DNA of 64,000 nt. Source: Cymbidium sinense. Lineage: Eukaryota > Streptophyta > Magnoliopsida > Asparagales > Orchidaceae. Within the stretch, counting starts at the first letter, position 1; each line of letters starts with the position of its first letter. The stretch covers positions 23,373,906 to 23,437,905 of the forward strand of contig CM038221.1 in the NCBI GenBank assembly GCA_021442155.1, in the 5' to 3' direction. Below the pieces are notes generated by a model. It searched no databases, was not told the origin of the DNA, and worked only from the letters and a program-made list of their open reading frames with translations. The position numbers and the translations under genes are program-made. Of the stretch, positions 28,924 through 60,612 are shown piece by piece.

Positions 28924-31900
28924 TCAAGTGTCAATTTCAGTAAAATATAAAGCATGTATAGCATCCGACAAATTCCCAACAAGCCTCCATTTAGAGCTTT
29001 TTTGTCTGATCACATAACATACTTTAGAGATGATTACATTAGTTGAAGCATTCTTAGAATAAAAAATTCTTTGATTCCACTCCATCCAGATGAAGTGAGC
29101 AACAATAAGGACGACAAGTAAGAAAAATCATCGAGTAATCGAGCAATAGATTGAATTAGCAAAATAAAGAAGTTGCATAAGAGAGTAGCCCAAGTGAAAG
29201 AAGTCCTCCATAGGAATACAACTTTTAAGTACTTCCATAGAGTAGTGACATTCAAAAAAGAGGTGAGAATATTTTTCCATCTCTTTATGACATAAAATAC
29301 ACAGTGAATCAACATTAACATTTCTAGTAATCAAAATATCAATGGTCTTCAAGCTTCCCATAATGGTATGCCATGCAAAAGTAGCATATTTAAGAGAATG
29401 ACCTTTAAACCACACAAACTTCACCCAATCCGGCTTTGGTAAATCCTGAAACAGAAATAAATGGGTTTTATTATGACTATAATTGCTTTTACCTAGCCAT
29501 AGATAGTTAATCTGCTCTTCATTAAAAAGAATTTTACTAATTAAATCAATGCAAGCAGCAGAAGTTAACAAATTACGAGGGAGCCTCCATGTATTATGAT
29601 AGATAACATCTCCTACCATAGTATGCAAGGGGCAGTCAAATCAGGAGAAGATTTGGTTACTAAACTTATCCCACAGTGACGAGCCATTAAGCCAAGGGTC
29701 AAAGAAAAAAGGGAGTTTACTTAAACTAGACACTTGGAAGGTAAAACACTCTTGAATGCGGGAAGCAGTTTTTTTCAGCTCTTTGCATAAGGGAGAAAGA
29801 AGATTAGAAGAGGAATGCCACAAGGAGAACTTATTTTCCAAAAACCAAAAGGAGATAAAAGAGTTAGAATTATAGATTCTCCATATAATCTTGGACTTAC
29901 ACATGATGTTTAAAGAGTCAAGGTTAGGAATACCCAACCCCCCTGAAAGAGTGGGCCTAGCCAGTTTAGCCCAAGACACAGTGATCATCTTACTATCCTT
30001 GCTGTTATTTTGCAGAAAGTTGTTCACCAAACTAGAGATCTTCTGTTTATAGTTCTTGGGAAGAGAGATGGATCGAAGCCAATAATAAAGACAGCTCCAA
30101 CAAGTATAACAAACCAATTATAATCTGCCAGCAAATGAAAGAAGTTTTTGCTTCCAACCGTTAAACCAATGCTGAAGTTTCTCAAAGAGTTTAGAACAAT
30201 CAATAGGTAAGCATTTAGAATGAAATAAAGGCAGCCCAAGATAATTCCAGGGAAGAGATTTAAAATTGAAACCCAAACCAACACATAATCTGTATAGACA
30301 GCTCATCCACCGACTTGGAGAAGCAAATAATGGACTTATCAACATTAGAGGACAGATTAGCTTCTTGAAAAAAGGTATGAAGAATAGAAGAGATACAGGT
30401 AATATTAGAGAGCTTAGTTCTGCCAAAAATAAGTAAATCGTCGGCATAAATAAGATGAGATATAGATCCATTCTATTTTTTTTATTGATTTGAAGATATT
30501 TTTCATGCTGAGATTGTCCATCATTCTTGAAAATACATCCATAACAATAGAGAAAGTGTATGAAGATAGAGGGCATCCTTGCCGGAGGCCCGATGTAGAA
30601 GAGAAGTAACCTTTAATAGCACCATTTTAAATGATTGAAAAAGGAATCTGATCAATGCAAGCTTCGATCCAATTGATGAAAGTAATAGGTAACGTCAGGA
30701 TAGAGAGCCTATGCAGGAGAAAGTGTCTATTAACATTGTTAGAGGCCTTTTTAAGGTCAATTTTGACATAGAAGCTTTTTGGGCTATTTTTTTGATTGAA
30801 ACTATAAATGATTTCATTAGCTAGGATGATATTGTCCGTAATATCATGACCTTGTACAAAAGCAGCTTTAGCCGGATGTATGAGAGAAGAAAGAATAAAG
30901 TTCAGCCTATTAGCAAGAAGCTTAGAAACCACCTTATAGAGAGTGTTGCAAAGTGATATGGGCCTATAATCTCCAATAGATTCAGCATGTTTGCTCCTGG
31001 GGATAAGGGTTATAGCAGAGTGTTTAACTCTAAGAGGAAGTTTAGATGTTTCAAAAAAGTAGTGGGTAGCTTCAACCAGAGAAAACCCAGTAATATCGCA
31101 AGTGTCTATAAACAATTTGGAAGTGAAACCATCCGGTCCTGGTGATTTATTGGGCCCGATAGAGAGAGCAGCTTTTTTAATGTCTTCATATTCAAAAGGT
31201 GCAAGAAGAGTCTCATTAACATGTTGAGAAATGCAAGGACCAACTGGTAAGTCCAGCCAATTAGATTTAGGAACCGTAGAGGGACAATTGAGTAAAGAAG
31301 AGTAGAAGGATAAGATCTAGTAAGAAATACCCTCTTGAGAATTTAGCTCTGTCCCATTGGATTTTAAGGTGCTGACATAGTTTTTATTCTTTATAATATT
31401 GATTCTTTGATATAGAAAATTAAGATCATCTTCCCCTTTGGTAAGCTAAGCACATTTGGCTCTTTGCATAACCCACTTACTTTCCCAATCTATAGCCTCG
31501 TTAAGTCTAGTTTGAATGTCAAGAGCCTCAGATAGGAGAGTGTTGCAAGTTGGGGTAGAATTCACACTATGATAAATCTCTAAAATTCTCAACTTCAAAT
31601 TGGATATTGTAGTAGATAAGTAATTAGCAGAGCTCCATTTAGCATTTTTTAAAACATCCTTAACATGTTTTATCCTATTGCAAAAGGAAAAAAATAGGAT
31701 CTCCTCCCACAGGGATTCTCCAAACGTTTTGAACAATATCCTGAAAGCCCGGGCAGCGGCTCCAAAAATTTTTATACACAAATCTGTGTCTTATGGAATT
31801 TTTTTCAGCCAAAGAGAGTAAGATAGAAGAATGATCAGATGTAAGAAGCGGAAGAACTTTCAGATGTGAAAAAAGAAAAGAGGCAATCCACCGAGAATTG

Positions 31901-32526
31901 TAAAGCACTCAATCTAGCAAACATCTGATGGGGTTGTTGAGCTGTTGATTAAACCAACTAAAAGAGATACTATTATTTTATAATTATAACAAACCATAAT
32001 GGAGTATACAGTTGTTAAAATCAGTATGCTTGCAAGAGATAGGGGCTCAACCACCAACTTTTTCCTTAGCACTTTGGATACAATTAAAATCCCCCATAAT
32101 GATCTATGGTTCATTGATTGAAGTAGCAAGAGTAGTAATCAAATTCTATAAGTCTTTTGCCCCTCGACTACTGTTTTTAGCATAAACAAAAGTTACAAGA
32201 AAGGTGTTGGAAGAGGTAGTGGAGAACCTACCATGGATGAATTGTGGATGTGAAAGAAGAGAAGAGAAGGAGAGCACATATGCATTCCATTTGAGCCAAA
32301 CTCGACCATTTGGCGCATCCAAGAAGTTGTGAAAACTGTCTTCATGTGGGAAAATGTTAAGTTTCTTTAAGGTGGAGGGATTATAAATAGTGGGTAGGTC
32401 AAGCTTAGTTTCCAACAAGCACAACACATCTACATGATTTTCTTTGACAAAATGTCTATAATCCTTGACTCTTGAGTCACTATGAAAGCCTCTCACATTC
32501 CAAGAGGCAATGTTGATGAGGGACAT
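28924..32526 (-). pseudogene. LINE ORF2 (endonuclease, reverse transcriptase, zf-RVT), broken
   Basis: ORF2 would nick the target and prime reverse transcription there. Start MSLINIASWNVRGF (32526) opens the AP-like endonuclease; LCLLETKL, GDFN (32094-32083) and SDHSSILL are its conserved motifs. RT motifs follow: TLIPRSKH, DYRPISLCNTLYKVVSKLLA (31000-30900), AFVQGHDITDN, FYVKIDLKKAS and the active-site YADD at 30448-30437. A zf-RVT region comes near the end (WHTIMGSLKTIDIL, CILCHKEMEKYSHLFFEC, 29400-29230). The frame ends at the TGA at 28926-28924. At least several frameshifts and stops split it into pieces of 70-166 codons. The catalytic residues are visible but not in one frame. Confidence 0.9.
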
Positions 32527-32605
32527 AAATTATTTTTGACTTTAGGAAGAGCCCCCTTTGGGCCTTCCTTTACGTCTATTGGAATTGGCTAGTACATTAT
32601 TGATC

Positions 32606-33774
32606 TTAGAAGAAGATGTCTTTGAACTGTACCAGGAGAAGGAATTGTTTGGGGAAGCTTAGTATGAGTTGATGGAGAAGAAGATGTCTTTGAACCGTAC
32701 CAGGAGGAGGAATTGTTTGGGGAAGCTCATTATGAGTTGATGGATTTTCAACTGGCTCTTCTTCAGCACCAAAATATGAGTCGTCAGCCGTGGACTCTAA
32801 ACTGTGTGAAGGATTAGCAATAGGCAAGTTTAAGTCAGGTGCAGTAGCTGTAGTGGTAGGAAGAGGTTGATAAAGGGGAGGAAGAGATGATATAGAGAGT
32901 CTAGGATTGCTCATTTCCCTAGGCCGAATAAGTGCAGATCGGGTGAGGTTCCTGCTTCTATTGCGACGAAGAGGAACAGAAGAAGGAGGTTTATAGTTTG
33001 GAGATTTTGGGCAAGTGTTGGCATTATGAGCGAAGGTGTTGCAAGCAACATAAGGGATGGGCTTCCATTCGTAGATAATTGGCTGAATCATCACCTTACC
33101 ATTGAGAGAAAGGGTGATAGAATATAGTAACGATGAAGAAGTGTTGATTTGAATGCTAACACGGGCAAAGGTTAGATGGGAGCCATTTGCAGTAAGAGGG
33201 TTTATGGTCAATGGAGTGCCAATTTTACTAGCAATTTTAGACATCCCTTTTCCGACCAACAGCATAATGGAAGATTAGGAAATTTCACCCAAATGGGGAA
33301 TTCATTGAAGTCTTCACGAACTAGAATAAACTCAGGAGTCCATTTCATAAAAATAAAAGGCTTTCCTAAAATAAACCATGAACCCCCATTAAAAACCATA
33401 TCCATATCTTCGACATAGTTAAACTTGAACAGAAAAAAATTGTCGGCCAAAGAAATTAGATCGACATTACCGCATAGTGTCCAAAGTTTCTTGATGGCTT
33501 GAAAAAGATGTTCGTAGAAGGGTCTCTTTCCTAGTGCGTATCCGACCTGAGCATTTTTCCACTGTTTCGACCCATGTGCAATTTCTTCTTCATTGAATGA
33601 CACAGTGTCCTCATTGGAGTGAATGAAGCTCAGATTGAAGGGTTTAGAGGTGGCACTCTGAGAGGTAAGGAGACTTTTCTAGTTGAGAAGAGTCGAGGGG
33701 GAGTGAGAAGGTGGTTGGCTTCCTGACATAGAAGAGGAAGAAGCGTTCAACAACAGAGAAGCACTAGCAGCCAT
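32606..33774 (-). pseudogene. LINE ORF1 (DUF4283 / zinc-knuckle nucleic-acid-binding protein), broken
   Basis: ORF1 protein would bind the LINE RNA. The likely start is the ATG at 33774-33772 (MAASASLLLN). An in-frame TAG stands at 33682-33680. The frame then runs through ALGKRPFYEHLFQAI, FLFKFNYVEDMDMVFNGGSW and IWVKFPNLPL, the DUF4283 domain. A frameshift near 33250 moves the rest to another frame: GMSKIASKIGTPLTI, FARVSIQI and IYEWKPIPY, then CNTFAHNANTC, a CCHC-like knuckle lacking its first Cys. The tail is Ser/Pro-rich and contains a 68-bp tandem duplication (32612-32747). Confidence 0.85.
32612..32747. repeat. 68-bp tandem duplication in LINE ORF1
   Basis: Two adjacent copies beginning 'gaagatgtctttgaac.gtac' at 32612 and 32680 differ at a few positions. 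On the minus strand they encode repeated PKQ/FPKQF-type residues near the end of ORF1. Confidence 0.85.
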
Positions 33775-33946: not shown

Positions 33947-35769
33947 GCTTCTTCTCGTTCTCATAGAAGTAACGATTTATTATAACTAAGAAAGTCAGAA
34001 ATAAGTTGCTATAAATTTTAATGTATGGTGGGATAGCATCCACAAAAGTCATGATGTCTTTCTATAACTTTCACTTCTAGTCGACAATGACAACAATATA
34101 TTGATTATTTAATCTTGACCATTGTAGTTACACTAACTATTACAATTGAACTTCACAATCCTTTCACCCACATTTTCATGGCCTTATTAACACTAATACA
34201 ATATTATTTAAAATCGTACGTGGAATATTCTTTCATAATATAAGCTAGCTGACATTATCAACTTATTAAATATTTTATAGTATTTAAAATAAATAATAAC
34301 TTATAAATAATGATCATATGAGATATAAAATATCTAATTTTAGTATACTCATGTCTTTAAATGTGTACTCTATTCTCACTGTCAAATGTAGGTGTTGGTT
34401 GTTTCATAATGATGTGGTGTTATCATTTGCTAGATTTCTTATTAAAACTTATATATCTCTTTTATATTGCGTTGTAACACCATTTTTATTCTTATTCATA
34501 TATAACTTGCAAGATTGCATTCTACATTTTTTAACAAAATTTATAAATTAACCATATTAAAGTCTTTTGAAATTTCTAGAGTTCTCTTTCTCATTCTTCT
34601 TTCAAATGTATTCACTTTGTTATCATCACTAACAACTTTCAAAAGTCCTTCTTCAAAAATATTTATATGCAAATCAACTACAACATTCACTTTTATATCA
34701 TATATGGTTTAATCACTTGAAGGGCCAACATTAGAATCTATATTTGTTGATTACAAATCAATAGTTAGAGGTTGTTAACTATCAAAATCTTGGAGGCATT
34801 AGCTATGCTAAAGATTTAAGAACATTCAAACATAAGATCGATGATATGATATTATTTATGGCATATAAATTAGATACAAATCTATGTCAACATTTATTAT
34901 CATATAATATATAAGGAACTATCCATATTTTTTCATGCAGATGTAGAAGAATTGATTTATGAATCTTATAGAATATATTTTTAAGATATTCTATGTCATT
35001 TATTTTGTAATTTTATTCTTAAAATTATATAAAAACTTAAAAGATATTTTTTTTTCTTACAAAAAATAAAAGATTAATATTTTATGCTTTATAGAATAAA
35101 ACAAAGAGTACTACATTTTTATTTTAAAGCAAGAGATTTATTAAATTTTCATGAGACTTAATATCAAGTATTTACTAAGTTACTTATTAAATAAATAATA
35201 TAAATAGTTTATAAATATAAATAAATAAGTGATTGTATTCAAGTTTGGTTCAGCTAGACTTCAAGTTTTAAGAACTTCAAGTTTATTTAAATATTGCTAA
35301 CTCAAAAAAACTTAAATAAATATTAATCAAACTAAGTTTGAGCTATTCATCAAGCATACTGGTTCATTAATTACAATCATAATTATAAACATCTAAAAAT
35401 AGAAATAAAACTCATATAAGATACATATAGAGCCTTGTCATCACTTGGAGTGTTTGTTGATCATTTATGTTATTTCTAAATCTTTCTCACATACACTTTT
35501 TTATTGTGATTATTTGTAGCTACTCGTTGGCTTTATATCATTTAGTTTTCCCCTTCTTTTAGGAGGGAGATTCTCTCATTCAAATCTAATCATATATGAC
35601 TTTAGGTCATTCAATACTATGTTTTTATTCCTTAAAGAAGAATCATCTTAACTACCTCTTCTCAATTGTCAACTTAAGACCATTCAATTCTATCTTCCAA
35701 TCATGCAAGGAATTTTCCCAACCACTTTAAGTTGCATGCTAACTCTAAGTTAATACTTTCTTTCCCTGT
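33947..35769. other. AT-rich intergenic DNA
   Basis: No gene recognised. At 35180-35370 phrases such as 'ttcaagtttggttcagctag' and 'aagtttgagctattcatc' suggest another decayed copy of the GAGCTC-type repeat. Frames at 34318-34712 are AT-driven and lack motifs. Confidence 0.45.
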
Positions 35770-40030: not shown

Positions 40031-41329
40031 AGCCCAATATTAAATAGGGAATGAGTGAGTGTTAGTCTCTTCCATATATTCGAAGCAGATAATTTCCACA
40101 TAGGATTGAAGAATGGGTAGGGAGATCTCGAGTGACATAATGAACTTCATTAAAAAATAACATGAAGCTAAACATAATGCTTACTTGTAACACAAAACAT
40201 CTTTTGAGACTTGATATCATGATCATTATAAAAGATCAAATTTTCTTGTTATTTAAACTTGTATAACCAAATCAAGATAAGTGTTGTAGCCTAAGTTGAT
40301 ATTACTATTTTATTCATATTAAATGCTATTTGATTTACTAATCAAGGCATGTCTCATCTCAAGTCTCAATAACTCCTTTATCTTAGACAACTAGGTTTTT
40401 TTATACGAAAATTTTAAATTATTCTTATATTTCATAATTGTAGACTCTAACGAGATCTTATTATATTTTTATCTAGTTTGTCAAGAACTCAAAGAAAAAT
40501 CTAAAATAGCCAATATAATAAAAATAAAACATAAATAGGTCAAATACTTTTACCCAAATGATTTTTCATTCGTTTCTTTCAAAAACTATGTCACATTATT
40601 CAAGCCATTATGCAAAGATTTATTTTAAAACTTAATGTGTATGTATATTTTTGCCATTTTATGTAAATCTTATATCTTATAAATATAAAGTAAAAGCAAT
40701 AAAATATTTTATTTTATAGTAAACAAATTCTTTATTAAGAGTTCAATAAAAAAATTATAAATGTAATTATCAATTAAAATTTTAATTCAATTGACAACAA
40801 TTAAAAAAGAAAAATAAAATATGTATTTCATTTGATCTAAGATTTGGTAAATATGAGTTGATCCATTGGATGAATTGTTGCATTAATTTTATTGTTTACA
40901 TAACAAAACAAAAATGAAATATATTAGGGTTACATGGAGTTGAAGTGTATAGGAAGAATCCCAAGGGGTTACAAAAGGGTGATGTGAGAGAGCCAATTGC
41001 ACATGTTATTTATAATATTAGGGATTTTAATTATCACCACCAACTCAATTAATATATATTGAGTGATTTTAGTAGCCAAGGAAGTCATGAACAAAATCCC
41101 TTAATATATACTTTATGCTTTGACCATGTTGAAATTGTCAAGTTTTTAAAAGATTTAAGACCATAACTTACCATTAATGATGTGTGGTATTTTAATTTGG
41201 AGTCATTGGGGTACCACGCAGATCTTAAGAGGTACTTATTAAAGTGATCGAGTATAACATTAAGGTATGATGTACCATCTCGAAAGATGGAGACATCACC
41301 CTATGATAGACCTAATTAATAAGGACTCG
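40031..41329. other. AT-rich DNA left of the tandem units
   Basis: No gene recognised. The last 300 bases (41020-41329) may already belong to the long LTR that follows, since no insertion boundary could be found. Confidence 0.4.
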
Positions 41330-41772: not shown

Positions 41773-41864
41773 AGCCTTAATCCCACTAGGTGGTGATCAA
41801 TTCCAAAAAAAACCAAAATCTTTCCTAAGCCCTTTTGATTCCATCTCATGGACTATGCTCAAAT

Positions 41865-42125
41865 CAAATCCAAATCACTCCAAATTCAAAAGATTTTCTC
41901 ACAACCCATTTATATTCTCATTTATATTCACAAATAAAAAAGAAATATAAATTCAAATAACAAAAACTAAATTGAAAACTAAAATCCAAACTCAACTTAA
42001 ATCCAACTTAAATCCTTCAAGTCAAATCCTTAAACTTAGCCCAAATAAAATTCAAATCACTCCAAACTCAAAAGATTTTCTCATAACCCATTTATATTCT
42101 CATTTATATTCACAAATATAAATAA
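41865..42125. repeat. Local duplication found only in unit 1
   Basis: A block of about 70 bases starting 'caaatcactccaaattcaaa' near 41870 recurs near 42054 with few changes; both include 'tttatattctcatttatatt'. Unit 2 has the block once (about 47535-47600). Confidence 0.75.
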
Positions 42126-44521
42126 AATCCAACTTAAATTCAACTTATGCTCTTTCCAAACAAATTCTTGAACTTAGCCAAATCATTCTCAAACCAATCC
42201 AAACCTTTGAATTTTCTCTTCAAACAATCATGCCATCAATCTCAAACCAAATACAAACATAAACTTCAATCATCAAATCAAAATCAAACTTACCCAAGTC
42301 AAACTCATATTCACCCTTTTGACTTAAAATTGTTAAATAAATCAAAGCCCATTTGACTCCAAACCACTTGCAATTGGATTCATATTTCAATCATAAGTCC
42401 ATATGTGAGTTCAAACAAACTTGAATCAAGCCTTGATGCTAATTAAGCTAATTTAACCCACCCCAAAGTGACCTAAAACACTTTTTTGAGCCAAATTTTA
42501 ATCCAACCCAAATTGGATTGAACTAAGCCCATCAAAGCCTCACATTGTGAACAACAATCATTTTAGAGTGATCAATAACTCAAATTAGGTCAAACCAAGT
42601 CAAACCTAACTATTGACCAAGTCAACACTTAGCCCAAATGAAACCCAAACTAGCCAAAATCCACTACATGCCAAATTGATTGAAACTATTGATCTAAACC
42701 AATCTATAATCAATGATTGAACTTGACCAAGTCATCATTTGAACCAAACCTAGCCTAATTGGCCACTTGATCTAAGTTGACCCAAGTTGGCCTAAAAAGT
42801 CAAAATATGTCAAATCTTGATCTAAGCCAAATTGATTGCAACCAATGGGTCAAATTCTTTCTAAATTACTTGTTGAATTTGACCAAAGCTTTAATTGGCT
42901 AACTAGACCCAACCTACCCCAATTGACTATGAACCAAAGTTGACCTGAAAGGTCAAATTAACTTGAAATTAAATGAAACTAAAATTGATTGAAACCAAAG
43001 CTTGTAATACATTTCAAATGATCAACCAAGCCTAAACCAACCCATGACCTAACCCAATTGGCTCAAATGGGTCAAATTGGTCAACTTGACCCATTTGACC
43101 TAAATGAACCTAAATGAACCAAAATTAAATATAAATCAAATTGAACCAAACCAATGATAGGCTAAAATGATCATTTGAACTGGTTTAAGCCATGGTTTGA
43201 CCAATTGAATCAATAACCCAACTTGACCAAAATAGGTCAAATTGAACCAATTCAATCCAAATGAACTCCAAATCATTTGAAATTTGGCCCAACCCATTTT
43301 TGAATCATTTCAAATCTGTCCAAATCAAAATCAAGGCCAAGTGACTGCTTTACCCCTAGGTCAAAGGGTATCATATGACCAAATTCACTTGGAATTTGGT
43401 CATATTCCTTCTCCTGACCACTTGACATCTTCCTAGTGGTCCATTTGGACACTAAGGAGGGTCTTGAACATGACCCAATCACCTTGGGTCAACCATGACC
43501 TAACCCAAGGCCAAACTGACCCCTCAATGCAAATTGGACACTTGAATCACCTCCTACACTCACCTAGCACATGAGCACTCCTTCTCTTCCACTTCTCTGC
43601 CAAAAATAAATCACATGGAGTCCCTAACAACCTAAATAAACTCTTCAATCCAAGAAATTGATCAAAAATGGCAAAGCAAGTCTCGGTCGTCCGATCCGAG
43701 TAGAGGGAGATATACTCCCCCTCATTCCAACTCAAACTAAGTTCATTGCATTCAATTGAGCTAGAGTGATTGAAAGCAAGCTTCTCCAAACTTTCCCAAG
43801 CCATTTCCAAGCCTCTTGAATTTCTCCTTTTCGGTTTTCTTCAAAGCCGAAATAGGAGAGGCCTAAGAAAATTCCAATTCATCCAATTCTCGACCAAACC
43901 TAAATTCACTTTGCAAGCACCATCAAGGGACCTAATCGAGGTCACCCAAGGCATTTCCCAAGTCTCTAAGCCACGAGAAGGGGGATTTTGATCGATGCCG
44001 CAAGCCATTGAAGGGGAGCTTGGTCAATTGAGCAATCCACTTCAAATCAGGACTTGAAACCTTCAACAGAGCTTCGTCTCTACAAGACAAAGCTACCTCC
44101 TCCGTTGAAAGCACCGGTGATAGCCTCCAGCGAGGTATTGCTCAAAATTGATCCTCCCTTAAAAATTGCTCAGTCTTTTGTGAAGGGAATTATAATCCTA
44201 TTAGATCCCAGCCGTTGGATGTTCTTCCCTATACCTCTTGATGGTGTGGGGTGAATCCTAGCCTAATCCAAGCTTAGGTGAACTCAGATCAAGTGGTGGA
44301 GGATGGATGACCTTCATCCCCTATAGCTTAGGCTGGGATGAATAATGAGCCTTCCATCCAGCATGTTTTGGATGGACGACCCTGATTAAATCGATCAGAT
44401 CCACTGATTTAAGCTCTTTAGAACCACGGATTAACCGGTGCCGATCCTTGATCGATGACCCGAGCGCATTACCGCCACCGACGACGCGATGTGATAACTT
44501 GAATAAGCAATCCTGTCGTGC

Positions 44522-44556
44522 CACGTGGAAAGCACGTCATGTCAACAGTGCACGTG
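44522..44556. promoter_or_regulatory. Pair of G-boxes in unit 1
   Basis: CACGTG at 44522-44527 and 44551-44556, 29 bases apart, with 'cacgtcatgtcaac' between them. The arrangement is kept in unit 2 (50232 and 50263) although the sequence between them has changed. ACGT cores bind plant bZIP/bHLH factors. Whether this acts as an LTR enhancer is inference. Confidence 0.4.
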
Positions 44557-47500
44557 GTGCTGATGGGATTAGTTAATTAATTAGGCTATTCTAATTATCT
44601 TTTAATCACAAAAACTTCATAAAATTATAATTAAATGTAGAAAAATCAAAAAAATATAAATGAAGGCTCATTTTAAAGGTAGTTTAGAGGGGAATCCAAT
44701 AAAATTATTTTTTAATTGATTTTGAAAGTGAAATTTTCTTAATTAGGATTTAATTAAAAATTGAATTACCTTAATTACTCCCTAATTACTTCATTAATTA
44801 ATTCTAAATTTTTCTGACATATTTAGTGGGATAACTTCTGCCTCTCTTAATTTTCTTGGAATTTATTAATGATTTAATTAGAAAAATTAATTATTGAATC
44901 TCTAATCATCCCCTTAATATAATTAAGAGTAATTAAGCATATGAATAGTGGTTTAATCCTTTAATTGATATAATTAAACATTGTTTAAGTAGGGAGGAGG
45001 TTTATGGAATGGGTTTGAGATATTTTCCCTAAGTTATTCCCTAAACCCCTTTCTTCCTTAATCCAAACATAATTAAGGATTAATCCACTAATGATCTATT
45101 TAATTAGTCTAATTGAACTTTCAGAACTAATTTAGAATTAATCAATCTTTTGCTGGGTAGATCCTTAGGTGTTCAAAAGCCTAAGGTAAGTTTGAAAAAA
45201 TTATATCCAACTTACATGTGTGGGAAGGTTATGAAAGTACTTAATGAAAACCATTTAGTTTAATTAATCAATAATTGTGAGCCAATTGCATTAGACTCCT
45301 TTATGTCTTAGGTGCATTATTGATTTAAATTCCACGTAGTTGCATATCATATGTTGGCTCATAATTATTAGTTTAATTATGTTAAAGTGATATAGGTAAG
45401 GGGTAATTAATGGATTTAATTCACACATTAACCTAAATAAAATATAAAATCAACCTAATTATTCTAAAAATTAAACTAAAACAATTCATACATGGGAGAA
45501 ATTGGTTAGGACTAGTAAACTCTTTTCACATTTCCAAAGTCAAATCAAATTCAAAAATAAAAACCTCTTTAAAGAATTTTGATTCACTTTAAATGATCTT
45601 ATTTCATAGGATTGTCTTTAGGAATTAATTAGGGTGAATGAAGTCATATGCTTACATCATTTTATATCTTTCCAAGCATGCTAAATATTGTATGCCATAT
45701 GAAATCATGCATTCATATCTTTTGAAAAATCAATTAAATGAAATATTTCCTTTATGTCAAATTGCATGTTTTGGCTAAAGTAAGAATATGAATGGCTATT
45801 ATCACTATTAAAAAAAAAAGTATTTTCATAACTTATAAAATCAAAGATTATAAATGAGGTGATGCTACTTATAAGTACTTATAAGCTTACATGTGATTAT
45901 AGCATAAGATGTGTTATGTGATTTTTTTTCTCTTTCTTAACATGAATTTGAACAGGATTTGCAAAGTGTATAGTTCATTTAAAAAGAACATAACACTTGC
46001 TTAAATATATTCCTATGCACTCCCATGTTATGACTTAAGAAGGATCCTCATATTACACATGTAAATGGTACAACCAAAGTCAAACAAAAATATTTTGCAT
46101 GATTCTTCATCCATTTGTTTTCTGTTTGTATATGCACATGTATTTAAGAAAAGTAGTATATTAGTCTGGACATCCTAGGATTGCGAGGCTTTAAGTAGCC
46201 CCAAGTAGGTCTTGTACCTTACACCCCGGTGAAAATAATGGCTACTGCACTCACTTATATATCTTTTATACATGTAGATGTGCATTTGATTAATGGATAA
46301 GAGAGTCCATCTTTTCTACTTAATAAAAGATATGCATTCATGGAATGTCCAAATTTTCTTAAGCAATATCTCTTAGCATTCATCATCAAGGTGTGCTAAA
46401 ATTTGCACTGCATGTATATATATGCTTAGAATTATTCATATGCATAGTATACATGTTGGAAAGAAATAAATGGTTGTGTTATGTGATAATAATTCATTTT
46501 AATTAATCTTAAGATGCCTTTCTTATTTAATAAGTTTATTTAGAGCAAATCTAAACTCAGGGTTAATTAAAACACATAATAAAATATTCACTAAAGAAAA
46601 ATCATTAATGAATCTACCTTAGAAATTACTTAAGGTAGGGATGAAAGAGAAGTTCTCTTCTCTTTTCTTCTCTTTACAATATTTAGTAATTAAGTGTAGG
46701 TTCGTTCAAACCAAATTAAATCATCAAATAAAATTGACAAATTGACTAAATCATTTAAAATAAAACCACCATCTAAGTTAAATCATTCACATTTAAATAA
46801 TTATAACCTTAAAGCCTAGCTAAGATATACCACACAAGCCTTAAATGAAACACACATTAGGCTAAGTCACCATTTCTAGCTCTATGTTAGGGTGGTGCAT
46901 GGTTTGATGCCTGATTTTATTTTGTGATGTAATGTTTTTAGATTGGATGTTAGGGTGCATGTGCATAGACTGGATGATAGGATGACTTAAGTCTAATCAT
47001 GTCTTCTATAGGGGATTATGCTTAAGGGAGCGCTGTAATAAAAATATAAATACTTTTCCTGTGCAGGTTGCTTATACCCCTAAGCATGATCCCAACTAGG
47101 ATAGGTGGACTTGGTTACTCACGTGTGGGGTTGTTGACCTTATTTTTAGAATGAGATCTCAACCCCTCCATCTTAGACATAAGACTTCTCTTAGACACTA
47201 AGAGTTTTCTTAGTCTTAAGACACTTTTAGTGATTATGTGAACACTCAACCTAGACCTAGAGACTTAGAAGAGTTAGTCATAGGAATAGGTCATGCCTTA
47301 GGGGTGTTAGGAAAATTTTGCCTTCCTTATAGCTTGAACCAACTCCTCACTTAAATTCCAAATCAAGTCTAAACCAACTCCAAACTCAAAATCAAATCAA
47401 CATCAAAACTTAAATCAATCTCAACTTAATTGATTTTCTCAAACTTAAATCAATTCTAAATGATTGAAATTCCAAATTCCAACAATTTTTCCTACGTCAC

Positions 47501-47686
47501 TTTGATTATATCTTATGGACTTAGCCTAAATCAAATCTAAATTGAAGAAGTTTTCTCATAATCCACTTATATTCTCATTTATATTCACAAATATAAATGA
47601 AATATAAATTCAAATAACCAAAACTAAATTTAGAAATCAAATTCAAATTCAACCACAATTCAACCTAAGCCTTTCAAGTCAAAATC

Positions 47687-48030
47687 TTGAACTTAGCCAA
47701 ATCAAATTCAAATCAAGCCAAACCCTTGATTTTTCTTCATGATTCAATCAAAACTTTAATCATGAATCCAAATATAAACCATCAATCCAAGAATCAATTC
47801 GAAACTCAAATCCAAATTCAACCACAATTCAACCTAAGCCTTTCAAGTCAAAATCTTGAACTTAGCCAAATCAAATTCAAATCAAGCCAAACCCTTGATT
47901 TTTCTTTATGATTCAATCAATCCTTCAATCATGAATCCAAATATAAACACAAACTTCAATCATCAAACTAAAACTAAATTCAAAAAATCAAACCCAAGTC
48001 AAACTCATGTTCACCCTTTAAAATTGAAAT
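47687..48030. repeat. Local duplication found only in unit 2
   Basis: A block starting 'gaacttagccaaatcaaatt' near 47690 recurs 169 bases later near 47859, and both copies give the spurious peptide start MNLAKSNSNQAKPLIFL. Unit 1 has only one such block (about 42170-42240). Confidence 0.85.
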
Positions 48031-50231
48031 TGTCAAATGAATCAAAACCCATTTGACTCCAACTCACTTGCAAATGGATTTATATTTTAATCATAAGTTC
48101 ATATGTGAGTTCAACCAAACTTGATTCAAGCCTTGATCAAGTCAATTTATCCACTTAGCTCACTTGATCCAAAGTGACCTAAAGTACCCCTCTTGAGCCA
48201 AATTCTAATCCTACCTAAATTTGATTGAACTAAGCCTATCTAGGCCTCACATTGTGAGCAACAATCATCATGAGATGATCAATCACTCAAATTGGATCAA
48301 ACCAAGTCAAACTTAAGGGTTGACCAAGTTAACACGTAGCAACACTTAGCCAAAATAAAATCTAAACTAGCCAAAATCTATCATAGGCCAAATTGATTGA
48401 AACCATTGATCAAACTCATTCATGATCAATGTTTGAACTTGACCAAGTCATCATTTGAGCCTAACCTATCCCAATTGGCCACTTGACCCAATTTGACCCA
48501 ACTTGACCTAAAAAGTCAAAATGTGTCAAAACTTGATCTAAGCCAAATTGATTGAAACTAATGGATCAAGTTCATTACAAATCACTTGTTGAACTTGATC
48601 AAAGCCTCAATTAGCCAACTAGACCCAACCTAGCCCAATTGACCTTGAACCCAACTTAACCTAAAAAGTCAAATTGAGCCAAAATCAAATTAAACCAAAA
48701 CTGATTAGAAAACAAAGATACCAGTACATCTCATATGACCAATGATACCTAAACCAACCCATACCTAAGCCAAATTGGTCAAATGGGCAAATTGGTCAAC
48801 TTGACCCATTTGCCTAAATGAAATCAAATGAACCAAATCCAAATATAAATCAAATTGAACCAAACCAATGATGCCAAAATATTTCAAATGGTCATATGAA
48901 CTTGACCCAACCCTTGGTTTGACTCAGTTTGACCAATTGGTCGACTTGACCTAAGTTGACCCATTTTGACCTAAATGAGTCAACATGAGCCAAATCATAT
49001 CAAATCAATTTCAAATTCATTGAAACTTGGCCCAACCCATTTTTCAATCATACCAAACATACTCAACCTAAAATACAAGCCAAATGACCATTTTAACCCT
49101 AGGTCAAAGGATAATTCTTGGCCAAATGCACTTGGAATTTAGTCAAATCCTCTTCATAGCCACTTGTCACTAGTGAGCATGATGCACATGACCCAATAGG
49201 TTTGGGTAAGCCAAACCCAACCCAAGGTCAAACCGACCACTCCCTTCATTTTAAGCACATGGAAATCACTCCTCCACCCAAAATCAGCACATAACACTCC
49301 TCCACTACCTCCTATGGCCAAAGTCAAATACATAACACCCTAAACGTCCTAACAAACCCATTGCATGAGGTGAATTTGATCAAAATGACATCTCTAAGCT
49401 CAGCCATCCGATCCACCTAAGGGGAATATACTCCCCCTAAGTTCACTTCATTCACACGGACTCACAGTCGATTAAAGCAAGGGAAGCTAGAGAAACCAAT
49501 TGCAAGCTCCTTCAAGTCTCCTAGAGCTTCTTCCATTTCTCCTCTTCTCAGTTTCTTCAAGCCGAAAATAGGGGAGCTCCACCATTTTTTCAAACACATA
49601 CAATACCCAAATTCAGCTCAATTGCTCTTCCAAGCACCTTGAGGGAACCCAATCGAGTTCACTCAAACCTTCTTCCAAGTTCTCAAGGCATGGGAGAGGG
49701 GACTTTGATCAAGGCTGCAAGCTTAGGAGGAACGTTTTGGTCAATTGAAGGAGTCACTCAATACCAAAGCCTCAAATCTTTAATAGGGCTTTATCTCTAC
49801 CAGATGAAGCTACCTCGATGGATTAGAGTGCCTGTGATAGCCTCTGATGAGGTATGCCTTCTACCCGAGCTTAAATTAGGGAGTGTGTGGTCCTTTGTGA
49901 AAGAACCTCATGCAAAATTGACTGTTGGATTTACTTGTGCTTACTTTCTAGATGGTGTGGGTAAAGTTTGAGTTCAATCCGAGCTCAGTCAAGCTTAGAT
50001 CTTGCCCTAGAGAGTGGACGGATGCCCTCTCCCACAGGCAAACTCAGTGACGGATCATGGACCATCCATCCATGCATTTTGGATGGATGATCCTCTGATT
50101 TATCTATTAAGAACTGCGGGCTCGATCTCAACCGTCCGATCCTTGATCGGACGATCCAGAGAGAAAGCACATAGCACCACCACTGATGTGGCACTGGGAT
50201 GTGATAACTTAAGTGAGGAATCCTATTGTGC

Positions 50232-50268
50232 CACGTGGAAAGCGCATGCCGCGTCAGCAGTCCACGTG
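50232..50268. promoter_or_regulatory. Pair of G-boxes in unit 2
   Basis: CACGTG at 50232-50237 and 50263-50268, matching the pair in unit 1. A palindromic 'gtccgatccttgatcggac' at 50134-50152 lies just upstream. Confidence 0.4.
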
Positions 50269-53200
50269 ATACCGACATGATTAGTTATATAATTAGAGGT
50301 TTTAATTAATTCCTTAATCACTGAAACTTCAAAATAACATAACTAAATGTAGAAAAATCATAAATACAAAATAAAATGCATTATGAAGATAATTCAGTAA
50401 GGAATTCACTTAAGTTATTTATAATGGATTTTGAATAGTATATTTTCCTTAATTAAGGTTTTAATAAAAATTTATTAACCCTAATTACTCCCTAATTACT
50501 TCATTAATTCATTTCAAATTTCACAGATGTATTTAGTGGGATGACCTCTATCTCCCCTAATTTTCTTGGGATTTATTGATGAGTTAATTAGGAAAATCAA
50601 TTAATGAATCCGTAATCACTCTCTTTATGTAATTAAGGGTAATTAAGCATGTGAACAGTAGTTTAATCCCTTTATTAAGTTAATTAAGCCTTGCTTAAGT
50701 GAAGAAGAGGTTTATGGAATGGGTTCGGGGAATTTTTCCTAAGCCATTCCCTAAACCCCTTTCCTTCATTAATCCAAACTTAATTAAGGACTAATCCACT
50801 AATCACCTATTTAATTAACTTGATAAAAATTTAAAAATTCTAGAACTTAACTAATTCATCTTGGGTAGGTTGTTAGGTATTCAATAACCTAAGTAACTTA
50901 ATAAAAATCAAAATCTAACCTACATGTGTAGGGAGGGTTATGAAAGAACTTAAATTAAACCCTTTAGCTTAATTAATCACTAATTGTGAGCCAATTGCAT
51001 TAGGCCCCTTTATTTCCTAGGTGCATTACTATCTTAAATTTCTTGTGTGGTTTTATGCCATACATTGGCTCATAATTATTTGATTAAATATATTAAAGTG
51101 GTGTAGGTAAGGGGTAATTAATGAACTTAATATATACCTTAACCTAAGCAAAGCATAAAACTCACCTAATGGTTCTAAAATTAAACTAAACAACATACAC
51201 ATGTGGGAAATGGGTTAGGACCAGCAAACCTTTTCACATTTTCTAAATTCAAATCGAACTTAAAATAAAACAAAAATCTCTTAAAAATAAATTTGGTTTA
51301 CTTTAAATAATCCTATTTCATAAGGTTGTCTTTAGGAATTAATTAGGGTGAATGAATTTACATGCTTTCATCATTTTATTTCTTTCATAATATGCTAAAT
51401 GTGTATGTCATATGAAAATCATGCATTCATGCCTTTTGAAAATTGAATTAAAAATGAAATATTTTCTTTATGTCAAATTGCATGTTTTGGCTAAAGTAAG
51501 AATATGAATGGCTATTATGACTATTAAATCCAAAATTATTTTCAAAACTTATAAATAAAATATCATAAGTGAAAGATATGCTACTTATTTATTTATAAGG
51601 TATGTGAGTATAAATATAAAGATGTGTATTGTGTGGCTTTCCTTCTCTTCTCTTTTAAGATGAATTTGGATGGATTTACAAAGTGTATGGTTCTTTTAAA
51701 AGAACATAACACTTGCTTATATCTTTTCATATCCACTTCCATGTTATGAATTAAGAAGGATTCTCAAATTTAAACATGTAAATGAAACAACCAACAAATT
51801 AACCAAACAAACATCAACTTTTGCATGATTCTCTTTCCATGCATTTCTTTTTGTACATGCACATGTATTTAAGAAAAGTGATATATTAGTCTGGACAACC
51901 ATGGGGTTACGAGGCTTTAAGTAACCCTAAGTAGGTCTTACACCTTACACCCCTGGTGCTAACAATGACGGTGTACTAACTTATGTCTTTTATACTTGTA
52001 AATGTGCATATGAAAAATGGATAAAAGAATCGCTCCATTTCTACTTAACAAAATCATGCATCATGAAGCATCCAAATTTTCTTAAGTAACTCTCTTAGCA
52101 TTCATCATTAAGGTATGCTAAACATTTCGATTTGCATGTATAGATATGTTTAGGATTCATCCATATGCATGTTACACATGTTGGGAAAGAAATGAAGTAT
52201 TGTGTATTTTGTGATAGTATTTCACTTTACTTAATCTTAAAATACCTTTTTTTAATAGGTTTGTTTAGGAAAAATCTAAACTTAGGATTGATTAAAACAC
52301 ATAATAAAACATTCACTAAACAAAAATCAAACATGAATCTACCTTAAAAATTACTTAAGATAGGGAGGAAAGAGAAGATTTCTTCTCCTTTCCTCTCTTT
52401 ATAACTTAGTAATTAATTGTAGGATTAAGTCAAACTAAATCAAAATACAAAATAAAATCAACAAAAGCAACTAAATCAGTTACATGAAACAAATCCTCTA
52501 AGTTGAACATTTCCATACTTAGAAAACTTCAACCTTAAAGCCTAGCTAAGCATACCACACAAACTTTAAATAACACACACATTAGGCTAAGTCACCACTT
52601 CTAGTCCTATGTTAAGGTGGTGCATGGTTTGATATTTGCTTATATTTTGTGATATTTTATTTTTAGTCTAGATGTTAGGGTGTATGTGCATAGATTGAAT
52701 GGCAGGGCGATCTTAGTCCAACCGTTATCTTCTGCAAGAGATTGTGCTTATGGGGTGCTGTAATAAAAATATAATTGCTGTGTAGGTGCTTATACCCCTA
52801 AGCATAATCCAAAATAGGCCATGTGGACTTAGTTACCCATGTGTAGGGTGCTAAGTCCAATTTACATATATTCATGCTTGGGATTGTTGGTTTGTTTAGC
52901 TAATCTCTGTTTTACAGGTATTAGTTAGATTTAGTATTCCCTTTTTCATGTAATTTTGTAATTAGGATTTTAGAATGATTGTTATGGGATATTAGGATGA
53001 GCATTGGTCATAAGACTATGCCTTATGTACCATGTGAAGGCTTTGGAGTAACCACATTCCAACCAACCAAAAAGAAAAAAAGAATAGAGAAGAAAGAAGG
53101 AAGAAGAAAGAAGAGAGAAGAAATGAAGAATGAAGACTTCCATAACAATGAATTACTTCTTGATTGTATTTAATTCATTTGTAATCTAGATTGTATAAGG

Positions 53201-54464: not shown

Positions 54465-54729
54465 AAGGGAAGAATCTCTGGTATATTTTGAAGACCCATA
54501 GTCCTTAGGAGTCCTTATTGAGATGATTTGGTCCATTGTAGGGTGGTGACTTCTATCTTTCGAGATAATACACCTCTCCTCAATGTCATACCCGATCACC
54601 CTAATAAGAACATATGTGGATCTACATGGTGTCCCGAAAAGGTGTTATATATTTCTATTTTCATCTATCCTCTTTTCCAAAAGGGGGATAGAAGAAGGCA
54701 AGAATATATAATTTTACCACAAATTTTTC

Positions 54730-54747
54730 TGGCGACTTCGCTGGGGA
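54730..54747 (+). other. Primer-binding site of the Tat/Ogre-like element
   Basis: TGGCGACTTCGCTGGGGA. Ogre-type Tat elements carry TGGCGACTC(C/T)G(C/T)TGGGGA here, reported to pair with the 3' end of a tRNA-Arg. It stands 8 bases after the LTR end ACA. It sets the element's start and plus orientation. Confidence 0.85.
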
Positions 54748-54846
54748 AGATTCATCTCTCCATCTTTGGTAAATGATCATTGTCTCCAAGTATCAATAGT
54801 AGGTTTGTACTTTTGTATGAATCATGGACTATCTTTCTTTTTTATT

Positions 54847-56286
54847 GGCACTTAGCTTATTTTATCCTTAAGTTAAGCTAGCCAACATCTTTAAGTTTTA
54901 GGACCTTACCCCATATTGGTCTTAAAACTCCCGTTGGGTTCCCCAATGGGTGAAAATAAAAATTTAATAAAAAGAAAATGATCAAAGACTTCCTCTTTAC
55001 CATTTCTTTGGTAAGGAAATGTTCATTCCAAAAATAAAGACAAAATAAATCCTTCATAAAAGTCTTGCTTTTCAAAAGTACTTTTTCAAAATATACTTAA
55101 TAAAATATTTACGCTACATCTAATAATTTCTATAATTGTTACGTGTAGGAACATTTCAAAAATAAAACCAACAATCATATTTTCCAAAAGCACAAATGAA
55201 TACCTTCCCTCAATTTACTTGAATGAATATTTCATCTTCAAATAAAAATAACAATCAACATTCCAAAAATAAAACCAAAAAAATCAATTTTCAAAAAGCA
55301 CATATAAAACCTCTCCACTCAATATACCCACATTTATTGAATGGAGGTTTCATTTCCAATCAAAATAAAAAATTAATCAAAAAGCACATATGAAACCTCT
55401 CCATTCAATATACCCATATTTATTGAATGGAGGTTTCATTTCCAAATAAAATGACACAATTTTGAAATCCCACTTAACATATTCCATATATGATTAGGTT
55501 GGAATTTCCTTTTTCAAAAGAAAAAAAGTAATAATCACACACGAAACTACATCTTTGAAAAATGAAATATAATTAATTTCCATCGTACATACCCAAATTT
55601 GTTAAATGAAAATCTCTCTTTTCAAAATCAACAAAACACAAATTTTTTGAAACACATTTTTGGGATTTCATTTAGCATACTCAAATTTGCTAAGTGAAAT
55701 CTCCATTCCACAAAATTTAAAACACACTTGGAACTTCATTTTAGCATGCCACATTTGCTAAAAGTGAAGTCCCCATTTTCAAAATAAAATTTCAAACACA
55801 TTTTTGAATTTCATTTAAGAATCCTATTTTTTTTTAAAATTCTCTTTCAAAAATAAAACACACTTGAATTCTTCATTTAGCATACCCAAATTTGTTAAAT
55901 GAGGATTCCATTTTCAAAATCACAAATGATTTACAAAATAAAGCAAACAAAGAAAAAGAAGAAATTGTTTTCAAACACCTCACTTAGCATACCCAAATTT
56001 GCTAAGTGAGTGAATTCCAAAAATCTCAAATCAAAATTAAATCAATTGACCCTTTACTTTAACATACTCAAATTTGTTAAATGAAGGGTCATCAAAATCA
56101 AAAATAATAATTCAAAATGAACCTATGGAAGCATCTCTCAAAAAGTATTTGAACCCATTTTTAACATACCCAAATTTGCTGAAACTGGGTTCAACATTCA
56201 AAAAATCCTCTTTTCAATCAATCTCAAAATCTCCTCTAAATCTATTTAAGCCCCACTTAACACTTTCAAGATGCTGAGTGTGGGTT
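54847..56286 (+). other. Leader hairpin array (about 17 stem-loops)
   Basis: Consecutive inverted repeats fill the leader between primer site and coding region: 54847-54883, 54894-54929, 54930-54950, 54990-55018, 55114-55148, 55306-55350, 55392-55437, 55464-55507, 55576-55612, 55662-55704, 55730-55774, 55806-55843, 55866-55909, 55976-56012, 56048-56090, 56151-56192 and 56250-56286. Most from 55306 on share a 10-base loop like TACCCAAATT; stems of 13-19 bases differ between units but pair within each. Spacing is about 60-110 bases, and the linkers are rich in 'tttcaaaa' and 'aaaataaaa'. As RNA this would be a bead-string of stem-loops. Role unknown; packaging, dimerisation, translation control or a template for small RNAs are all possible. 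Confidence 0.8.
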
Positions 56287-56289
56287 CAA

Positions 56290-58045
56290 ATTTTAAAATT
56301 CAAATTCTCAACAAAAAAAGGAATCTGATTCAAGTTTATTTTCAACATTGCAGACTTTCTATCAGCCTCAGTTTCTATTGATTGCAATGATAGTGCAGAA
56401 GTATGTGTTCACGTTTCCTCATGGGATGGATCGAGATCTGTTCCATGATCTATGCCCACCTCATTCACTTTGGTGAGGCTGAAGTATGTGAGGAACCCCT
56501 ACCACAGCAAGTGACCAAAGTGTGTCATCCAAAATGACATGCCATCGATGAGATCCCCTCATTAAAGAGGAAGGTTATGGAGGTTCCCACGAATGATCAT
56601 GCCAAATATTAGTGTGCTAGTTCCCCATGCTTCCCTCTAGTATACTCCTTGGCACCTTCAAGGGGAAGGCTCTGATCTGTGGATTGTCTCCACCTATTGG
56701 GTCTAGCTCCTACTTTGCTCGACCTACCCGAACCCAGCAAAGAAAGAAGAACCGCATGATCAAGAGGTACTGCACTCGCATTACTAGAGAGTTGGAGACA
56801 CCTAGCCTATTAGGAGTTTCTATGGTTTCTTTAAAACAGTTCCATCCATCTAGATCTGACAGAGAGGATGCTAGGATTTCTGCTCACTCTAGTGATTAAA
56901 ATTGTAGTGAGAGGAGGAGGTGGTCGATCAATTTTACATCGAAAGAGTCATGGATGATCGAGTTGTGATTTGAGATCTATCATTTTCAAAATCTGGACAT
57001 AACTTAGTGAGAGGCTGAGAGGCTGCATATCATTCATGTTACTGAGCACCAAGGTACAACAAAATCGATTGCACTTATCAATTTTCCGATCAACGCCTAT
57101 CACCATAGACAAGATCTTACTCTACTACACACCATGGAGGGGATTTATCAGAGAGTCGTGGTGCCTCCACCACACCACTCTTCTCGTCAGCCTCTTGTAC
57201 ATTTCTCAAGATATCTATTTCAACCAAGGCCATGAAGGCGCATTGAAGAAGAGAACCTTGGTGATCATGGCGAGATCCGTTCATCCACCCTATTATGGCA
57301 AGGTCAGCCTGACCTTCCTTATAGTGGTGAGGATACACTAAGTCATCTCATCACCACCACCACCACCACCACCACTGTAGGCTATCGAGATAGTCACAAC
57401 AGTTGAGGGAGGAGGAGACATTTCACTCACCCCTATGGCCATAGATCTTGTTTGGAGTGCCACTGATCCAACAAGAATAAGAGTATTTTCCTCTGGCATA
57501 GTCCTCACAAGATCACCACTAGTAGATCGAGGTTAGGTGCTTATCTATTCATGAGTCACTACAGATTCAATCTTTCATGCCTATTCAAACCGATCCTAGA
57601 TGACAAATTCAAGATCTAGTAAAGAAGAAGGAAATCTTAAGATATGTCTAGTCTGATTTAGATGATGAAAAGGTCAACTTTGATCTAAATGAAGATGATC
57701 TGTTAGAGGATTCAACAAGGGCACACATGATAGATACTCGAGGTTCTCTCTTCCATGAGTAGCAGACTATGGAAGGTGCTGAGGCCGAGGAGGAAGACAT
57801 AGCCTACTCGACCCAACACCTCCCAAGCAAATAAAGATGAACAAATAGATATGATGAAGTAGATCGAGGACTTGTTAGCGCATTTAGCACTTGAATTAAA
57901 CAGGTCCATCTTGCTATAAATGACTAGTCAACCAGTTGGTGCATGTCTTGGATCCAACCAAGACTTTACCTCCAAGAGAAATGGTAAACCATCATATATA
58001 GGAAGGTATTGATAGTACCTCCATACAAAAAAAAGACATCAAACC
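56290..58045 (+). other. Region between leader and gag; possible ORF1 remnant
   Basis: GC content rises here to a coding-like level. Short plus frames at 56627-56899 and 57036-57341 have no motif I recognise. Ogre elements carry an extra ORF of unknown function before gag; this region has the right place and size, but I see no sequence proof. A (CAC)n run lies at 57350-57375. Acidic residues around 57660-57800 resemble the linker before Tat gag domains. Confidence 0.4.
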
Positions 58046-59165
58046 ATGAGTAGCGGTGAGAGAAGCATTGGCTTAAGCTCAGGAGGATCGCCCAAAGGTA
58101 GACCCTACCCAGAGGAATTTGATGCCATCCAATATCCTAAGAGTTTTGTTCCACCTTCTTTCAAGAGCTTCGATGTCAGTGAAAACCCGAGGTAGCATAT
58201 TGCACACTTCGGAGCCAGTTATTGTAATGCCGATGGCAGTGACGCTTTAGTCTTCCATCTCTTTATCAGTAGCTTAGCATACATAGCCTTTGATTGGTAT
58301 GCTAAACTTCCCAACAGTTCAGTGAAGACTTTTGCTAATTCAGAGCAACTCTTCATCAAGAGGGTTGCTAGAGCTCAGCAAAGGGTGATTGTAGGAGATC
58401 TCATCGTGACTCAATAAAACCCTGGTTAGTCTCTCATTGATTACATTCTCAGATGACATAATTTGAGTATGAAATATAAAGATGTCTGAATAACATGCCA
58501 TTAAGATTCTGCTTAAGAATATCTATGGCCCAGTTGCCTTTATGCTCAAAGGTTTCACCATCAGAACTTTTGAGAAGCTAATCAACAAGGCGGCTAGCTT
58601 TCAAGGAGAAGCCAAACAATCGCCTTTTTGGACCAATCAACAAAGTCGAATCCACATAATGCTTTTGAGAAGAAGCTTGGGACAGTGATAGCAGTAGACA
58701 AGGGAAAATAATCGGACATAGAGCATTTTGAGAGACCTCATTCTCCACAACCATCACTTTCACCTCCTCTACCACCACCGAGGTAGCCCTACTGGTCTCC
58801 ACAACAGCCTCCATGGCTCGCACTACCTCCTCCTCAGGTTACATCATCAGCAGCAGCAGTACACATACCCACTGCCAGGTAGTTATGGTCCACCTACTCT
58901 TTTGGATAAATTTAACAAGCCTTATTTATTTAAGGGGGGAGGTAATCATGAAGATATTTAAGAATCTTTTAAAGATGCCTGATTTTTAGCTACCTGAACC
59001 TAGGAGACTAAAGAAAGTGGGAAAAAGTAATGATCCTAACTTTTAACCCTACCACCGTATGCTAGGTCATGTTTTGGAAGATTGCTTCACATTCAAGGAC
59101 TGGTTTGAACATAGCTTCAAGACCGGCGCTATAGTTATCCTGAAGGAATACCTTGTGGAATAATC
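58046..59165 (+). pseudogene. Tat/Ogre-like gypsy gag, broken
   Basis: Gag would form the particle around the element RNA. The ATG at 58046 opens MSSGERSIGLSSGGSPKGRP, then YPEEFDAIQYPKSFVPPSF and FKSFD. The Retrotrans_gag core follows: HIAHFGASYCNADGSDALV, FDWYAKLPNSSVKTF, EQLFIKRV and SLIDYILR. In-frame stops stand at 58193 (TAG), 58415 (TAA) and 58427 (TAG); the first fits a CAG-to-TAG change. A Pro/Gln-rich linker (58730-58890) leads to LPEPRRLKKVGKSNDPN and then YHRMLGHVLEDCFTFKDW (59040-59110), the C-terminal HC cluster of Tat gag. The family call is firm; the copy is dead. Confidence 0.85.
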
Positions 59166-60089: not shown

Positions 60090-60612
60090 ATATGTTTAGC
60101 TTAGTTGACTGCTATTAGAGAGGAGGCACATTATTCTATAGAAGCTTAGGGAATCACTTTCACAAATAAAGACCTACTTTTGGGGGACATGGAGCACAAC
60201 TGTTCCCTCTACATTACAGTTGACATGGGTAGATTCAGACTTGCCAGAGTTCTCATCGATCTAGGTGCATCAGTGAAAATTATGAGTCTAAAGACCCTTG
60301 CATATTTGAGGATCAACATCTCCACACTCCGAGGATATTGAATGATGTTAAGAAGATTCAATAAATAAAGTGAGAGGGGCTTTTGGTTCCATAGTGTTAC
60401 CTTTGGAGATAGGTGACGGGAATACTAAAGCCAAGTTTTATATCATTTATTTGAATACTTCATTCACCGCTTTGCTCAGTAGGCCTTGGATACATCAGAA
60501 CAAGATGATTTCATCCTCCCTCCATTAGTGCATCAAGTTCACGAAGGATGGGATTGAGTACTATGTCAAAGGTGATGAAAATCATTTTTCAATCAGAGAG
60601 GTTGATATATAT
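60090..60612 (+). pseudogene. Tat/Ogre-like aspartic protease, broken
   Basis: Retropepsin that would cut the polyprotein. Frames read GITFTNKDLLLGDMEHNCSL and FRLARVLIDLGASVKIMSL at 60160-60290, with the catalytic Asp codon at 60258-60260. The usual D-G-(G/S)-(S/A) is D-L-G-A-S here, so the Gly after Asp is Leu. A frameshift occurs near 60345. Then ALLSRPWIHQNKMISSSLH, a stop at 60538, and CIKFTKDGIEYY (to about 60570) match the conserved end (LLGRPW.H...VVPSTLHQ..K). The fold is recognisable; activity is not expected. Confidence 0.85.

Follow-up and report, generated by a model that had tools for sequence, protein, structure and literature searches.

Analysis of the window (the whole 64-kb stretch of DNA considered here) revealed a hairpin-rich retrotransposon leader, the 3' part of which is one hairpin family. 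The array structure is well supported, and we consider it probable, with good confidence, that the pairing of the hairpins has been kept by selection. As far as our searches go, this real, high-copy, structured leader is new among the structural variants of retroelement leaders.

The hairpin array and its host element

Local folding of the leader (54748–56330; pairing span of at most 70 bases) revealed 18 stem-loops that have 8 or more base pairs and an energy of −5 kcal/mol or below, in line with the "about 17" counted in an earlier reading of the sequence alone (the sequence-only reading), and the individual stems and loops quoted there lie where they had been placed. A covariance model trained on 45 hairpins (5 from each of nine classes, drawn from 40 copies of the family) matched 10 hairpins at 55305–56196 on the + strand, 9 of them with E < 0.001 and 1 weakly at E 0.14; 2 of the 10 are members of the training set. 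Nine of these 10 hairpins are also among the 18 folded stem-loops, and the tenth (55570–55619, class 4) reaches only −0.6 kcal/mol in the window copy. The other 9 folded stem-loops, 6 of which lie at 54796–55148, had no match to the covariance model, so the shared loop that the sequence-only reading had ascribed to an array of about 17 is a property of the 3' group (55305–56196) only. At E ≤ 1, the remaining matches of the model in the window were a weak one at 34326 and three on the complement of array hairpins. The features of the leader and of its element, all on the + strand, are as follows:

54730–54747, +, primer-binding-site-like sequence, read in the sequence
54845–54885, 54894–54929, 54930–54950, 54994–55017 and 55114–55148, +, five tested 5' leader hairpins of unrelated sequence (fold; aligned in 32 of 40 copies)
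55305–55354, +, array hairpin, class 2 (covariance model, 53.1 bits)
55391–55440, +, array hairpin, class 2 (56.6 bits)
55460–55511, +, array hairpin, diverged, weak match (20.2 bits, E 0.14)
55570–55619, +, array hairpin, class 4, weak fold (45.5 bits)
55658–55707, +, array hairpin, class 3 (61.6 bits)
55727–55775, +, array hairpin, without a class after the loop filter (29.9 bits)
55863–55912, +, array hairpin, class 6 (57.8 bits)
55970–56019, +, array hairpin, class 7 (58.7 bits)
56045–56094, +, array hairpin, class 5 (57.3 bits; in training set)
56147–56196, +, array hairpin, class 8 (50.7 bits; in training set)
56251–56284, +, final leader hairpin, without a model match (fold)
58016–58414, +, decayed gag-like pieces (stop-free, named by eye; Pfam silent)
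60150–60525, +, decayed protease-like pieces (stop-free, named by eye; Pfam silent)

The segment 55300–56292 folds at −212.6 kcal/mol, compared with −134.2 ± 7.1 kcal/mol in 20 dinucleotide shuffles (z −11.1), and is thus far more stable than shuffled controls of the kind that the sequence-only reading had proposed; the folding z of its complement is −7.6. No Rfam family matched the leader, and the sole Rfam match was a weak one to MIR1507 outside it (50695–50774; 26 bits versus a gathering score of 73). The 5' hairpin at 54894–54929, which is outside the family, has a loop (TTACCCCATATT) that resembles the array loop, and it may be an old relative.

The host genome (3.53 Gb, 2174 contigs) was searched with an 887-base array query, which yielded 8698 initial candidates; 40 of these were scored, and all 40 matched. 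The set of 40 copies used throughout consists of the window copy and 39 others, with the duplicate loci L003 and L005–L008 removed, and it represents the most similar copies rather than a random sample. The array is present in all 40 of these copies, contrary to the possibility, raised at the outset, that other family members lack it. A loop-anchored search allowing up to 3 substitutions identified 582 hairpins, of which a loop filter retained 517 and 488 fell into nine classes of at least 6 members, with 6–18 classified hairpins per copy (median 12). The class order is nearly fixed, with exceptions in several copies: class 2 (repeated), 4, 3 (repeated), 9 (in some copies), 1 (repeated), 6, 7, 5, and 8. 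Classes 4, 5, 6, 7, and 8 are single in each copy where they are found (39, 34, 33, 32, and 31 copies, respectively), which, together with the nearly fixed order, indicates a fixed 3' end and a variable number of hairpins in the inner and 5' blocks.

The hairpins have a common architecture. In 200 sampled hairpins, the stems have a median of 15 Watson–Crick pairs and 181 have at least 11, whereas controls displaced by 37 bases from the hairpin centre give a median of 7 pairs and only 44 with at least 11. The 10-base loop is close to UACYCAAAUU and is conserved across the nine classes, and the spacers between hairpins are rich in A (0.50) and poor in G (0.06). The exact 22-mer hairpin core TTAGCATACYCAAATTTGCTAA occurs 35,815 times in the host genome, compared with 0 occurrences of the reversed control; it had 0 exact matches in IMG/VR viral contigs.

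The primer-binding-site-like sequence TGGCGACTTCGCTGGGGA at 54730 is putatively of the Ogre type, antisense to tRNA-Arg. In 22 of the 40 copies, a like site with up to 4 substitutions precedes the array. Pfam gave no useful match to the gag- and protease-like pieces of the window or of a sister copy on contig C16. In that sister copy, which is tied to the family by the array hairpins in its locus (L047), Pfam identified RVT_1 (4e-17), RT_RNaseH (1e-8), RVT_3/RNase_H (5e-6), and Integrase_H2C2 (1e-9), in that order; the domain test concerns this copy, and its domain order is as in Tat/Ogre elements (Ty3/gypsy). The array sits between the primer site and the gag-like pieces and not between pol and the 3' LTR, the position of the tandem arrays in the Tat/Ogre 3' UTR.

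Probable selection for base pairing

The pairing of the stems was compared with a tree-preserving null, in which the tree and the substitutions of each branch were kept and the substitutions were moved among stem columns (six runs of 150 or 300 replicates, with 98–244 of the 488 hairpins). The observed fraction of Watson–Crick pairing was 0.775–0.797, compared with null means of 0.40–0.56, and was higher than in any replicate. The summed G statistic was likewise above every replicate, so that both measures exceeded the null in six of six runs. An assignment test on the outer arms of the nine classes revealed that, among 362,880 assignments of 3' arms to 5' arms, the true one alone reaches the observed energy; 2 of the 9 5' arms nevertheless bind a 3' arm of another class more strongly, by about 2 kcal/mol.

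The covariation score of the alignment of 45 hairpins was 0.447, whereas shuffles gave 0.232 and slid partners no more than 0.239, which bears out the initial observation that the two arms of the stems change in step. In the same alignment, the number of pair types was not above shuffles, nor was the number of pairs with a double change (11 of 14, compared with 10.2 in shuffles; 209 of 500 shuffles reach it), and the RNAalifold consensus energy, computed across mixed classes, was only −3.4 kcal/mol. Inside classes, 28 of the 49 double-change cells are Watson–Crick. A one-set R-scape-like test (122 hairpins, 703 pairs) gave no pair at E 0.05, the best being k3 (0.075) and k5 (0.30); scaled to the 16 proposed pairs, the same values become about 0.002 and 0.007. 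The hairpins represent in effect nine lineages, and therefore the power of this test for single pairs is low. Covariation above phylogenetic expectation, by which the sequence-only reading had asked to be judged, is thus found in aggregate against the tree-preserving null and not pair by pair.

Variants common to at least 3 copies were also set against singletons in 36 and 32 aligned copies. The ratio of shared to singleton variants in the stems (36:158) is lower than that in the spacers (75:195; p 0.027) and in the 3' flank (57:88; p 3e-5), and the ratio in the loops (12:33) is no lower than that in the spacers (p 1.0). An initial Fitch analysis of 581 hairpins gave 12 Watson–Crick-to-Watson–Crick double changes at partner pairs on internal branches and 63 on terminal branches, compared with at most 5 and 27 at slid partners; the total of co-changed branches was hardly above the slid values (33 versus 19–31 and 198 versus 134–196, respectively). 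Being dominated by terminal branches and spurious loops, the Fitch analysis was not used further. A separate indication, of more frequent pairing for shared than for singleton stem variants among orthologs (p 0.004 and 0.01), was discarded, the listed variants being mostly C>T/G>A transitions.

The likely selected strand

The tiles of the array fold at a median of 1.82 times the shuffled energy on the + strand and 1.28 times on the − strand, with the + strand higher in all 40 copies, whereas tiles of the 3' flank fold at 1.05 times the shuffled energy (40 copies). The mean hairpin probability is 0.755 on the + strand and 0.530 on the − strand, and the + strand is higher in 341 of the 446 scorable hairpins (of 488). 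This folding bias fits a role of the A-rich, G-poor spacers in insulating the hairpins from one another in the sense RNA.

Wobble counts point in both directions. Among class-majority wobbles, G.U exceeds A.C (6 versus 3 at one threshold and 5 versus 3 at another), and at pair k3 the genome-wide counts are 4017 for G.T and 2748 for A.C. Among the 100 matches listed for each k3 state, a count by eye found another match of the same state no more than 2 kb away for 36 G.T and 6 A.C places, and many of these may share one origin. By contrast, A.C exceeds G.U among wobble cells in the 40 copies (257 versus 188), among their shared variants (24 versus 13), and among variants common to hairpins of one array (7 versus 1); shared ortholog variants number 13 each, and the single-side cells of the five tested 5' hairpins give 65 G.U and 55 A.C. 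Because these counts disagree, the + strand is not proven. Of the selection on RNA structure claimed in the sequence-only reading, selection for pairing is supported, and the + strand RNA is the likely selected molecule, with the wobble counts in conflict.

Strand-specific mutation was considered as the source of the A.C excess and rejected: C>T and G>A rates are similar in the flank (0.125 and 0.132) and in the hairpins (0.061 and 0.069), and C>T is higher in the spacers (0.094 and 0.059). At CG stem pairs of the array, 3'-arm G>A changes outnumber 5'-arm C>T changes in the 40 copies (104 versus 53), and 3'-arm G>T changes outnumber 5'-arm C>A changes (60 versus 17), even though the two arms are mirror contexts.

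Possible function and relation to known systems

We propose that the hairpins would have been kept by selection for pairing during the active period of the element, the spacers helping each of them, as computed, to fold independently. Hairpin number varies in the inner and 5' blocks, apparently because units of hairpin plus spacer are duplicated, and the order of the 3' members is kept. In the genomic RNA, the conserved loops may serve as contacts for a protein, for which the Gag of the element itself is the likeliest candidate, and multivalent binding could then lead to full-length RNA being chosen for packaging into virus-like particles. This whole explanation, in which a Ty3/Tat (Ogre-like) leader array kept by pairing selection acts as a multivalent packaging platform, is our tentative preference, with slightly more doubt than trust. 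The Gag/packaging role itself, suggested by analogy with packaging signals between the primer site and gag, is possible and calls for a little more caution again. That copies gain and lose hairpins by unit duplication, so that the number of Gag sites and the competition between sister elements would evolve like a dial, is a doubtful extension.

The main non-selective rival dispenses with selection on RNA. Reverse transcriptase could switch templates and copy one arm of an imperfect palindrome from the opposite arm, which would repeatedly restore its perfection, and slippage could multiply the palindromes; the compensatory differences would then be mechanical. The wobble test without a consistent + strand signal and the highly variable array length between copies are consistent with such a process, as is the view, in the accessible text of PMC7004042, that Tat tandem repeats arise in replication by abnormal strand transfer. 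However, template switching explains neither the conserved loop nor the A-rich, G-poor spacers, and the better folding of the + strand in 40 of 40 copies and the G.U and G.T majorities in the class-majority and k3 counts speak against it; we regard it as unlikely. The inverted repeats at very high copy number could also make the leader a substrate or decoy of the host small-RNA machinery (Dicer). At about 15 bp, however, the stems are short for a Dicer substrate, the leader has no Rfam miRNA match, and a conserved loop is not expected of such a substrate, which makes this reading highly improbable.

Two further rivals would give the array a different role in the RNA. AUGs are abundant in the leader (279 in spacers and 232 in hairpins across the 40 copies), and simple scanning to gag is therefore unlikely, which makes translation control a serious rival, whereby a hairpin-rich leader would let ribosomes reach the reading frames by shunting or internal entry despite the many upstream AUGs. 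The structured leaders of plant pararetroviruses are used for both shunting and packaging, but the known shunt, as the accessible text describes it, uses a single large stem-loop together with a short frame upstream and not an array of small hairpins (PMC5902531). Translation control would not need the conserved loop either, and we consider it quite unlikely. Alternatively, the palindrome CAAAUUUG, contained in the loop and its closing pairs, could allow hairpins of two RNAs to form kissing loops and thereby dimerise the RNA. Outside class 2, 360 of the 380 hairpins contain AAATTT, and in Ty3 a palindrome close to the 5' end mediates dimerisation (PMC11381356). On the other hand, only 32 of the 108 class 2 hairpins have AAATTT, the loop proper leaves only AAAUU, an A/U-only core would be weak, and a single site should be enough; dimerisation is an improbable role, and distinctly so.

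Retroviral packaging signals are a few different stem-loops between the primer site and gag, and the few differing stem-loops of these signals and of Ty3 contrast with the 6–18 copies of one hairpin here. A structured leader between primer site and gag is a feature shared with both, in which it serves packaging and dimerisation (for Ty3, PMC11381356). The plant pararetrovirus leader is comparable in being long, AUG-containing, and structured; it is used for translation and packaging and is described in the text available as a single large stem-loop without an array (PMC5902531). Within the same retrotransposon lineage, Tat/Ogre/Retand elements carry tandem repeat arrays of variable length in their 3' UTRs, downstream of gag-pol (PMC7004042, PMC11963269), and in this they resemble the present element; the accessible portions of these two sources do not mention hairpins or covariation, whereas the Cymbidium array is structured and lies upstream of gag. 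Sireviruses have repeated, dyad-symmetric palindromic motifs, conserved as in the present array of a plant LTR retrotransposon and located in the LTRs or before the envelope-like gene; however, these are Ty1/copia elements, and their short CGG-CCG boxes are discussed, in the text available, as DNA regulatory boxes without covarying stems and shared loops (PMC2829016). Features in common with the present family, in part putative here, are found in the orchid Ogre-related elements with a 2-ODD domain, which are sister to Ogre within Tat and have a tRNA-Arg-antisense primer site and dual RNase H, and whose description does not mention leader hairpins in its accessible text (PMC9289625). No description of a hairpin array in a plant retrotransposon leader was found in the literature searched, which covers few subscription journals and is partial.

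The array thus places tandem repeats in the 5' leader, compared with the 3' end for the Tat/Ogre arrays in the part of the literature that was found. LTR retrotransposons fill much of many plant genomes, and to our knowledge little is known of their RNA packaging signals. If the proposed role is true, an expandable array of near-identical hairpins would be a modular, countable packaging signal that sets packaging strength. The 40 copies, which differ in hairpin number and, by class, in their stems, constitute a natural experiment in which packaging, dimerisation, and translation are testable with short RNA fragments.

Positions 41799–47131 and 47468–52849 form a 5.5-kb direct duplication with 74.6% identity, and 41213–41328 is the reverse complement of 54509–54630 at 73% and may represent the LTR of a related element on the opposite strand. 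On the minus strand, open reading frame pieces at 29128–33265 resemble a non-LTR (LINE) reverse transcriptase, and pieces in the 4 kb directly after the window (L046) resemble a Ty1/copia polyprotein, both named by eye.
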